Below, in pieces: positions 4,802 to 25,321 of a DNA stretch of 37,185 nt. Made by a program: the position numbers and the translations under genes. This DNA comes from Treponema sp. (GTDB taxonomy: Bacteria > Spirochaetota > Spirochaetia > Treponematales > Breznakiellaceae). The notes under the pieces are model-generated. The model saw nothing but the letters and a program-made list of their open reading frames with translations, was not told the origin of the DNA and ran no database searches. Numbering within the stretch: position 1 is the first letter of the stretch; the number at the start of each line of letters is the position of its first letter. The stretch spans positions 1 to 37,185 of the forward strand of contig JAITCL010000103.1 in NCBI GenBank assembly GCA_031283105.1, in the 5' to 3' direction.

Positions 4802-4823
4802 TGACAATCTTGCGATACCATCA

Positions 4824-4922
4824 TTTGCTTCCTACGCTGGTATTAACCAACAGGTTCAAAGGGTCAGGTTTTACCTTCTCAACTCATCGGCGTTCTACAG
4901 AACGCCAGAGTTCCCCTGCAAA
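4824..4922 (-). promoter_or_regulatory. TPP riboswitch (THI element)
   Basis: The minus strand shows the conserved TPP aptamer core: a GUUGAGA element, then ACCCUUUGAACCUG, then UUAAUACCAGCGUAGGAA. Helix P1 closes between UUUGC (4918-4922 region) and GCAAA (4824-4828). An optional extra hairpin (GGCGUUCU / AGAACGCC) sits in the P3 arm. With TPP bound, the downstream terminator is expected to form and shut off thiD-thiM-thiE-HAD-tenA. The aptamer begins only 8 nt after the stop of the upstream lipoprotein gene. Confidence 0.95.
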
Positions 4923-4930
4923 CATTCAAC

Positions 4931-20054: not shown

Positions 20055-21275
20055 TTAATCTGTTACCGCAATACCGTAAACAAAGGACTCCGAGGCTCCG
20101 GCGGGAACCGGAAGGTCTGTTTTTACCGTGCTTTTCCAGTAACAGGCTTTGCTGACACCGCCGTCTTCATAATATCCCGCCGTGTAAATGTCCGCTCCGG
20201 CGGCTGTTATCGCGTAGGCTTTGGATACCGAAGCGGCGTGAAGGTCCGTCCTTACCCTGCCCTTCCAGTAACAGGCTTTGATAACGCCGCTGTCCGTATA
20301 ATACCCCGCCGTATAAACGTCCGCTCCGGCGGTTGTAATGGAAGCGGCATCCGCGTTCGAAGCGGTGTGAAGGTCCGTTCTTACCGTACCTTTCCAGTAG
20401 CAGGCTTTGCTGTTGCCGCTGTATGAATACGATCCAGCCGTGTAAACGACCCCCGCCGCGACCGTTATCGCGCTGATATTGGTAGATAAATTGAAATTAA
20501 GGTTTGTACTTGTATCATTAGTCCGGGAATAGGCCCCGCCTGCGCCGCCGCCCAAAGAATCCCCCGCGTCTGTCACGGTTTCGGTATTGGAATACGAATT
20601 CATGTCCGTCCTTATATCGTTTATCCAGTAACAGGCTTTTAAAACCCCGCCGCCCGTATACCAGCCCGCCGTGTAAACATCCGTTCCCGCGACCGCTACC
20701 GCGGCGGCTAGTGAAGCGTCCGAAGCTTCAGCGGGATGTATGTCCGTTATTGCCGTGCCCTTCCAGTAACAGGCTTTGCGGACACCGCCGTCATAATACC
20801 ACCCCGCCGTGTACACAAGCCCTCCCGCGACTGTTACCGCGTAGGCGATGGAAGACGATTCGCCTGCGGGAAGGTTTATTCTTGTACCGTTTTTCCAGTA
20901 ACAGGCTTTGGAAACACCGTCTACATAACCACCCGCCATATAAACGTCAGTTCCCTCTACCGCTATGGCATAAGCGTAAGAATCCGAAACAGACTGCGTG
21001 TCAGTTCTTGTACCGTTCTTCCAGTAACAGGCTGTGCGGACGCCGCCGTCTTTATAAGTCCCCGCCGCGTATACGTCCGCGCCCGAAACGGAATAGGAAG
21101 TAAACGTGAAAATAACCAGGAGGGCAAGTTGTAAGAAAAAGGGCTTAACTGGTTTTACCGGGAACCAGCCGTTCGGAGTGTAAGCCCGGACAAGACCCCT
21201 CGCACATCCCGCATTGGGTAATGATTGTTTTTTGAAGAAAGAACGCATCGCATCAGCGCCATAAAAGACCGTCAT
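20055..21275 (-). CDS. Secreted seven-repeat protein (HAF-like, possible beta-propeller)
   Basis: A 406-residue protein. After a long basic N-region comes a hydrophobic signal segment (FFLQLALLVIFTFTSYSVSGA, cut by about residue 66). The rest consists of seven repeats of about 48 residues, each with a DVYTAGxY...GVxKACYWKxxxRTDL core. The repeat recalls HAF-type extracellular repeats, and seven copies suggest a seven-bladed propeller, though this is inference. Between repeats 4 and 5 there is a low-complexity insert rich in T, N, S and G. The ATG overlaps the gpmI stop by 4 nt (ATGA), so it is translationally coupled; an internal ATG at 21248 is an alternative start. Function unknown; likely surface or periplasmic binding. 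Confidence 0.8.
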   Translation of the reverse strand: MTVFYGADAMRSFFKKQSLPNAGCARGLVRAYTPNGWFPVKPVKPFFLQLALLVIFTFTSYSVSGADVYAAGTYKDGGVRTACYWKNGTRTDTQSVSDSYAYAIAVEGTDVYMAGGYVDGVSKACYWKNGTRINLPAGESSSIAYAVTVAGGLVYTAGWYYDGGVRKACYWKGTAITDIHPAEASDASLAAAVAVAGTDVYTAGWYTGGGVLKACYWINDIRTDMNSYSNTETVTDAGDSLGGGAGGAYSRTNDTSTNLNFNLSTNISAITVAAGVVYTAGSYSYSGNSKACYWKGTVRTDLHTASNADAASITTAGADVYTAGYYTDSGVIKACYWKGRVRTDLHAASVSKAYAITAAGADIYTAGYYEDGGVSKACYWKSTVKTDLPVPAGASESFVYGIAVTD

Positions 21276-24339: not shown

Positions 24340-24376
24340 GACTTGTAAGGCAACTCGGTTAGTTGTCTTACAAGTC
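24340..24376 (+). terminator. Stem-loop after the lipoprotein gene, likely terminator
   Basis: Sixteen-base arms (24340-24355 and 24361-24376) differ at one position and enclose a 5-nt loop. They begin 2 nt after the lipoprotein stop. A run of six T (24381-24386) follows after four bases. This is the first of four consecutive inverted repeats. Confidence 0.6.
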
Positions 24377-24378
24377 CT

Positions 24379-24421
24379 GCATTTTTTCGGGTTTAAGCGG
24401 GCTTAAACCCTGCAAAAATGC
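24379..24421. repeat. Inverted repeat 2
   Basis: An inner perfect 10-bp stem (GGGTTTAAGC / GCTTAAACCC, 2-nt loop) is extended by an outer GCATTTTT / AAAAATGC stem with small bulges. It is a different sequence from its neighbours, so this is not a simple duplication. Confidence 0.6.
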
Positions 24422-24434
24422 TTTTTTATAAGGA

Positions 24435-24466
24435 AGTTGTTCGGAAACTGAAGTTTCCGAACAACT
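24435..24466. repeat. Inverted repeat 3
   Basis: Perfect 15-bp arms (AGTTGTTCGGAAACT and its complement) are separated by 2 nt. It could form a cruciform in DNA or a very stable RNA hairpin. Confidence 0.7.
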
Positions 24467-24497
24467 CTAGTGAAAACCAGAAGAAAACCGGCAAATA

Positions 24498-24535
24498 ACA
24501 AAGAACAGGTAACAAAAACACCGCCTGTTCTTTGT
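24498..24535. repeat. Inverted repeat 4
   Basis: Perfect 12-bp arms (ACAAAGAACAGG at 24498-24509 and CCTGTTCTTTGT at 24524-24535) enclose a 14-nt loop. The right arm runs into the first, partial unit of the 21-bp array, which itself opens with a 7-bp palindrome (24539-24553). Confidence 0.7.
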
Positions 24536-24972
24536 AAAGCGCGAGCCTCGCGCCCGGGTACGCGAGTTCCGCACCCGGGTACGCGAGTCTCGTTCCCGGG
24601 TACGCGAGTCCCGCACCCGGGTACGCGAGCCCTGTTCCCGGGTACGCGAGCCCCGCACCCGGGTACGCGAGCCCCGCACCCGGGTACGCGTGACTAAGAC
24701 CCGGGTCTGAGTGCTTAAGACCCGGGTCTGCGCCATTTTCACTTAGGCGGGAGCCTTTCATTCCTAGTCGGGAAACTATTTCGCTTAAGTACGAGCCTTC
24801 GGGGCTTAAGTACGGGAGCCTTGCGCTTAAGTACGGGCCTTCGGGGCTTAAGTACGGAAGCCTTGCGCTTAAGTACGGGCCTTCGGGGCTTAAGTACGGG
24901 CCTCTGGGGCTTAAGTACGGAAGTTTTGCGCTTAAGTACAAACCCCTGGAGCGAAATACAGAACACGGTTAT
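24532..24972. repeat. 21-bp tandem array with palindromic hexamer cores
   Basis: About 20 units keep an exact 21-bp register with no insertion or deletion. Counting from the core, nine units carry CCCGGG (24553, 24574, 24595, 24616, 24637, 24658, 24679, 24700, 24721), two are degenerate (CTTAGG at 24742, CCTAGT at 24763), eight carry CTTAAG (24784 to 24931), and a last one at 24952 is worn. In both families the core usually runs into GTACG. Unit tails alternate (GCA/GTT in the first block, TTCGGGG/CTTGCG in the second), giving a 42-bp super-period. Because 21 is a multiple of 3, long frames exist on both strands (for example 24426-24941 minus, heptads such as YLSPEGP and AYPGAGL). I see no ribosome-binding site for them and do not call a gene. 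The region 24338-25028 holds no other gene. Confidence 0.9.
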
Positions 24973-25028: not shown

Positions 25029-25321
25029 ATGTTTGTCTTTGAATGGTATTCCGAAAAGGAACGGCTCAATGTTGAAAAGCACGGAATTGATTTGGAAACG
25101 GTCAAAAAAGTATTTGACGATCCTTTTAGAATAGAGCAATATGATGAAGCCCACAGTGGAACAGAAGACAGATGGCAAACCCTTGGTATGGCCGGAGAGG
25201 TTTTACTGATGTTTATACTGAAAGGGCTGAAAAAATCCGTATAATAACGGCCAGGGAAGCGACTCCCGAAGAAAAGGAAATTTATTATGGCGCAAGTAAA
25301 GGGTACTGGTTTATCCCCTGA
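25029..25321 (+). pseudogene. brnT: BrnT-family toxin, frameshifted
   Basis: The frame from the ATG at 25029 starts like BrnT/DUF497 toxins (FEWYSEKERLNVEKHGIDLETVKKVFDDP), then runs off at GEVLLM to a stop at 25242. The remaining family sequence (VYTERAEKIRIITAREATPEEKEIYYG) continues in another frame from about 25211 to TGA at 25319-25321. One base is missing near 25210; restored, the product is 97 residues, normal for BrnT. BrnT is an RNase-like toxin held by a DNA-binding antitoxin. As sequenced the toxin lacks its C-terminal catalytic part and should be inactive. The partner downstream is also broken. Confidence 0.85.

Follow-up and report, generated by a model that had tools for sequence, protein, structure and literature searches.

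A minisatellite-like array with palindromic cores and an exact 21-bp step in a treponeme genome, and related arrays within its family

Few components of bacterial genomes are explained as poorly as their dispersed palindromic repeats. Plasmid iterons and partition centromeres, which occupy one locus per replicon beside genes for replication or partition, are familiar cases of direct repeats spaced by about 20-22 bp that lie on the same face of the helix. Rickettsia palindromic elements can sit in frame inside genes, their units being much longer and not arranged as tandem 21-bp arrays, and the STRR sequences of cyanobacteria are grouped with the heptanucleotide direct repeats. In enterobacteria and Pseudomonas, the REP, BIME and REPIN sequences are palindromic, mostly extragenic, dispersed and clustered, and tandem arrays of them are possible (PMC3116915, PMC2884548). 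The REP unit measures about 20-60 bp, has one conserved sequence per genome and occurs as singlets or inverted pairs at longer spacing (PMC3116915, PMC2884548). The TAACTGA heptanucleotide repeats of Beggiatoaceae and cyanobacteria have a fixed 7-bp unit and stand mostly upstream of start codons (PMC4679880). Searches of the available literature found no account of 21-bp palindromic arrays in treponemes, though one may still exist.

The array described here lies in a window of 37,185 nucleotides, the whole stretch of Treponema DNA that was analysed. From 24553 to 24951, 19 cored units succeed one another at an exact 21-bp step, the cores standing at 24553+21n with zero exceptions. They are preceded by a degenerate leading unit (24532-24552), which fits the 21-bp register, is devoid of a palindromic core and holds most of the hairpin GCGCGAGCCTCGCGC (24539-24553). 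Sub-array 1 (24553-24741) comprises nine 21-bp CCCGGG units, with cores at 24553, 24574, 24595, 24616, 24637, 24658, 24679, 24700 and 24721 and the consensus CCCGGGTACGCGAGTCCCGCA, the final two units carrying CCCGGGTCTG. Two transition units (24742-24783), with CTTAGG at 24742 and CCTAGT at 24763, keep the register and lead into sub-array 2 (24784-24951), where eight 21-bp CTTAAG units (cores at 24784, 24805, 24826, 24847, 24868, 24889, 24910 and 24931) alternate between two types, GGGCCTTCGGGG and GGAAGCCTTGCG. None of these features is assigned a strand. One additional CTTAAG, at 24714, is out of register.

The first-pass annotation of this DNA had claimed an array at exact 21-bp spacing with nine CCCGGG, eight CTTAAG and two intermediate cores, and the core positions and lag identities establish that it is real. 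No unit, it had added, has gained or lost a base, which agrees with the zero indels found among the units, and most cores were said to precede GTACG, which is the case for 14 of the 17 perfect cores (its G being shared with the core). Its count of 20 units over 24532-24972 is correct as 19 cored units plus the degenerate leading one, but the repeat stops at 24951 and the final 21 bp of that range (24952-24972) are non-repeat. Over 420 bp, identity amounts to 0.687 at lag 21 and 0.72 at lag 42; the former compares with a top identity of 0.355 in 300 dinucleotide shuffles, all lags between 5 and 63 considered, and lag-21 identity in the rest of the window peaks at 0.404. The 42-bp super-period, also announced for the whole array, is clear in the CTTAAG half (17.8 of 21 positions identical between units two apart, 14.3 between adjacent ones) but weak in the CCCGGG half (18.2 against 17.7). 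Read directly in the same register, a unit of one half (CCCGGGTACGCGAGCCCCGCA) and a unit of the other (CTTAAGTACGGGAGCCTTGCG) share 13 of 21 positions; hence the two blocks look like diverged parts of one array and not like unrelated ones. The core change from CCCGGG to CTTAAG replaces CC..GG by TT..AA on both sides, so that the palindrome is preserved.

Set beside the described systems, this head-to-tail tandem array of imperfect copies, with a unit within roughly 10-100 bp, has the make-up of a minisatellite. It is intergenic with palindromic cores, as extragenic palindromes of the REP/BIME kind are, and the likeness to REP, BIME and REPIN sequences extends to their being short and to a lineage-specific copy number (PMC3116915, PMC2884548); the present unit departs from REP in measuring 21 bp, in being strictly head-to-tail and in its core sequence, which varies both from one array to another and inside a single array. 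By similarity the window array is single-copy in its own genome, and so differs from the many copies of REP/BIME, which do have a counterpart in the arrays of the related genome G186 (see below). With the TAACTGA repeats (PMC4679880) it shares an intergenic tandem arrangement and a patchy distribution among relatives and phyla, but it contains no 7-bp sub-period, identity at lag 7 and lag 14 being 0.29 in both cases. A repeat of another phylum with a unit of ~20 bp, as far as its citation in PMC2884548 describes it, is likewise tandem, dispersed and suspected of mobility, and its sequence differs. Unlike iterons and partition centromeres, the array has no initiator or ParA/ParB-type genes adjoining it, and the arrays of relatives are dispersed on the chromosome.

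The array occupies a 1.2-kb gap between the gene of a 225-aa protein (+ strand, no family match) and recO (- strand), a broken brnT and argA being its other neighbours. To its left, three hairpins and an inverted repeat, none assigned a strand, follow each other. Hairpin A (24340-24376, GACTTGTAAG...CTTACAAGTC) has a 16-bp stem, is terminator-like, stands at the 3' end of the + strand gene and is part of a dispersed repeat, to which hairpin B (24379-24421, GCATTTTTTCGGGTTTAAG...CTTAAACCCTGCAAAAATGC) belongs as well; the two recur jointly at two further places of the same genome, C119 and C159. Hairpin C (24434-24467, AAGTTGTTCGGAAACTGAAGTTTCCGAACAACTC) is a dispersed palindrome present at well over ten other places of the genome, and most of the 38 matches returned by a query with the stretch 24340-24467 are to it. 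The inverted repeat ACAAAGAACAGG ... CCTGTTCTTTGT (24498-24535) adjoins the left edge of the array. In the right flank, a brnT-like toxin gene (25029-25290, + strand) is frameshifted: its first 71 codons match PF04365 (E 3.7e-13) and the remainder of the protein continues in another frame. Among same-genus relatives recO is often still beside argA and its other side differs; at the recO loci examined there, recO had neither the 225-aa gene nor pgm as its neighbour, 21-bp arrays were not detected, and an empty-site comparison yielded no homologue of the array's left side beside recO. Judging from the dispersed hairpins, the broken brnT and this non-conserved recO neighbourhood, the array sits in variable, debris-rich DNA. 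Elsewhere in the window, a TPP riboswitch (4812-4927, - strand) lies upstream of thiamine genes, and a 129-bp tandem repeat (20111-20448) lies inside a 406-aa gene (20055-21275).

A second array in the same genome, which the first pass had proposed to look for as a check, was not found by BLAST, by a triple-GTACG pattern, at relaxed E-values or with the sequence model R1, the genome being a MAG that is 94.6% complete and in which repeats assemble poorly. A scan of genome contigs with an exact CTTAAG motif gave no match. An unbiased sample of ~0.3 Mb (about 11% of this genome) held the window array plus one weak short array only. Neither flank of the array qualifies as the end of a repeated element, and plasmid and phage collections contained no match to it.

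The search among related treponemes, also proposed in the first pass, did recover arrays of period 21 with palindromic cores. BLAST of the window array against 200 genomes of the family revealed 21-bp arrays in four of them (G064, G120, G166 and G186), and a degenerate 21-bp-spaced pattern derived from these four matched 17 of the 200 genomes and 14 of 57 genera, with >100 matches that lie mostly within longer lag-21 arrays. As controls, the reversed pattern matched 6 genomes and the motif at 24-bp spacing likewise 6, the latter with one evident array. When a sequence model was run on an order-wide sample, all 14 matching genomes fell within the family, several with more than one array. The same unit layout is found in the arrays of G059, G064, G079, G104, G120, G123, G127, G133, G159, G166, G168, G180 and G186, and some 15 further genomes of the family carry the class, frequently with several arrays each; several of these relatives would come from termite guts, to judge by the isolate names of the matching contigs. 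Matches to a TACG pattern in G001 and G010 proved to be coding repeats (EAERRRK, and RNDTSIV in an AlbA-like protein) and are unrelated to the array.

When the arrays are aligned in one register, their units have the form GTNC-NNNN-GNAC and then nine bases resembling GAGANTCTC, and the cores of the class include CCCGGG, CTTAAG, CCTAGG, CCGCGG, CTGCAG, TCTAGA, CCATGG and CTCGAG. Covariation was assessed over 21 arrays in a fixed register, positions 3, 5, 6, 7 and 10 being free in the search pattern. Core pair 6-7 is complementary in 13 of the 21 arrays against 5.2 expected by permutation (p 0.0002), with all four pair types represented; pair 5-8 is complementary in 15 against 8.5 (p 0.0002), one letter of this pair being fixed in the search pattern; for pair 3-10 the figures are 13 and 8.7 (p 0.03). 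Because complementary covariation between arrays is seen at core bases left open by the search pattern, the palindromic core is a genuine property common to the class. A shuffle test of the best dyad per array with the centre left free, which is a weak test next to the more telling fixed-register covariation, placed 4 of 25 arrays at p<0.05. Within arrays, variable core positions are compensated at 0.55 inside a unit and at 0.52 between neighbouring units, which is no clear signal; this suggests that palindromy was fixed at the founding of each array more than policed later. The core also switches at unchanged register in the arrays of G133 and G168, as it does in the window, and core switching is therefore a habit of the class. 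Where the first pass had thought of repeat conversion or of two paralogous binders, an expanding, dispersed and lineage-specific repeat fits the evidence better than the latter.

How far such arrays can spread is seen in G186 (L312-L331; e.g. L321:2739-2928 and L328:11660-11843), where period-21 arrays number about 60 per Mb and belong to several dispersed families. In a 400-kb sample of this genome, 24 of the 30 tandem arrays of period at least 10 have period 21 and two have period 20; the arrays are typically 150-240 bp long, and 17 of the 24 are indel-free. By contrast with this abundance, 400 kb of G183, of the same genus as G186, held zero such arrays; an unbiased sample of G007, of the genus to which the window belongs, likewise held zero. 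One G186 family occupies about 20 places of the genome and is almost absent from five sister genomes, and a (CTTGTAGGGCATGCCCGTCAA)n body is bounded by constant family ends, CGGACCTTTGACGGACCCCC on the left and TGCAACGGAGATCCCCCCGG on the right. With regard to the orientation of the flanking genes, the G186 arrays divide into ++ 8, -- 3, +- 4 and -+ 3, and two stand inside genes. Such a distribution bears the mark of an element that is dispersed, lineage-specific and mobile-like, and it argues against terminators or a centromere.

Arrays of the class can also enter genes, since that of G123 (L129:4875-5105) lies in frame inside a 1553-aa gene, where it forms a linker of VSGNGxG/VPGNEVP repeats, about 11 heptapeptides long; by eye, the gene resembles BcrAD/BadFG-type activases. 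In-frame insertion in genes is a trait shared with the Rickettsia palindromic elements. As a separate observation, all three arrays found in G064 (L079 C35, L082 C4 and L125 C27) are just upstream of gene starts or overlap them, and the adjoining genes seem to be members of a single family (MANIPKSYP.../MSDYMPRSD...), which suggests that array and gene may move as a pair there.

The reading I favour, with confidence somewhat above even, is that the array is a non-coding minisatellite with palindromic cores, of a class spread by slippage and by copying in the manner of mobile elements. The start would be a short palindrome, roughly two helical turns long, seeded at the site by itself or within an element of REP or MITE type; slippage during replication, together with unequal recombination, would then gain or lose whole 21-bp units with the help of hairpins between neighbouring self-complementary cores; local homogenisation would spread new unit variants, so that blocks of CCCGGG and CTTAAG units come to stand in one array, separated by mixed units; and in some genomes the array, ends included, would be copied to new sites. 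On this slippage account selection is not required to maintain the register, because additions are whole units, and the two-turn period may reflect the helical geometry of slippage or that of a bound protein. Slippage and conversion would presumably be the dynamics at work in the window array, which probably spread in the way of its class and would have no selected cellular function. Counter to this, the window array is single-copy by similarity and neither flank is a repeated element end, so that its own mobility is at most conceivable. For pure drift, 19 diverged units without an indel are a little orderly, although the same holds for 17 of 24 arrays in G186, and the paired core changes that turn CCCGGG into CTTAAG with the palindrome kept would also be predicted by selection for the dyad.

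Phased DNA sites were one of the two options of the first pass; in that case a dimeric, perhaps polymerising, protein would sit on the cores along one helical face, with a centromere-like, silencing or nucleoid-organising role. The exact two-turn register over about 400 bp speaks for such sites, and so does a dyad that reaches the centre, the two central bases, unable to pair in a hairpin, being those complementary in 13 of 21 arrays; the two period-20 arrays of G186, moreover, favour helical phasing over a codon frame. Dyad symmetry of the core is accordingly backed by the related arrays, but evidence for a bound protein or for a centromere-like or silencing role was not found, and the arrays have no link to any candidate for such a protein. 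Against this proposal, the core varies between arrays and even within that of the window, more than any one sequence-specific protein would accept; congeners carry from none to very many copies; core changes within arrays are not clearly compensated; and one copy (G123) is in frame inside a gene. Operator-like sites of this kind are, on balance, an unlikely explanation. A broader conjecture, for treponemes and perhaps other bacteria, would let the core drift freely while dyad and two-turn register are kept, the arrays being helically phased platforms with a real chromosomal function, for instance for a protein that reads shape or symmetry; I regard it as rather improbable. A functional register, if such it proved, would be a pointer to a new chromosomal protein that reads symmetry.

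Little probability attaches, likewise, to a structured RNA or a bidirectional terminator or attenuator, in which neighbouring cores would pair in the transcript as a string of hairpins between convergent genes. The array does stand between convergent genes, beside a terminator-like hairpin; its folding is more stable than that of shuffles (z -4.3 as single-stranded DNA and -5.2 as minus-strand RNA), and the transition core CTTAGG keeps a G-U-type pairing. Any tandem palindrome folds well, however, so the z-scores are weak evidence. Arrays in G186 occur in all gene orientations, two of them inside genes, and therefore display no preference for 3' ends, no T-run follows the window array, and Rfam, searched over the window, matched only the TPP riboswitch and nothing at the array.

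A gene of heptapeptide repeats, the other option of the first pass, was rejected for the window locus and is a very improbable reading. Twenty-one bp equal seven codons and, by construction, any frame of a 21-bp repeat is a heptapeptide repeat. On the - strand, a 171-aa frame (24426-24941, motif PYLSPEG / AYPGAGL) is open through the whole array, and the related array of G123 is clearly in frame within its gene. The 171-aa frame, however, extends through the dispersed hairpins and has its TTG start at the array edge; the + strand frames are broken by stops in the transition zone; and none of the array frames matches a protein family. The comparison of synonymous and non-synonymous change among units, another check that had been proposed, gave best p values of 0.035 and 0.042, on opposite strands and uncorrected over 12 tests, thus no convincing codon selection in any frame. 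Related arrays, furthermore, include indels, and these cases together with those of period 20 argue against a reading frame as the cause of the figure 21. That the array is an artefact of assembly or collapse is scarcely credible: the genome is, admittedly, a MAG, and contig ends hold several of the related arrays, but individual units differ, the flanking DNA is unique and continuous, and arrays of the same kind appear in independent assemblies.

A class that pairs a fixed two-turn period with a freely changing palindromic core, that has constant ends in one genome and whose copy number is explosive in one species and zero in its sister is a compact subject in which to ask whether the geometry of DNA can, by itself, drive the birth and spread of repeats.

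Beyond the family, a cross-phylum scan returned 85 stretches, nearly all 21-periodic, the search pattern being itself 21-periodic; they are possible coincidences of motif among common 21-bp arrays, and homology is not claimed. MAGs of Planctomycetaceae (L139, L161, L177, L205 and L214) contain 21-bp arrays of a similar kind, CTCGAG palindromes forming the cores of some, and have isolate names that resemble those of the matching treponeme MAGs; the likeness of the arrays may be due to horizontal spread or to chance. In Amycolatopsis thailandensis (L165:3225-3434, L186:2661-2849 and L202:2999-3229), a forward 21-bp block, GGAACTCGCGTGCTTGAG..., is followed by a reverse-complement block, ACGCGAGTTCCG..., and the two together form large inverted repeats.
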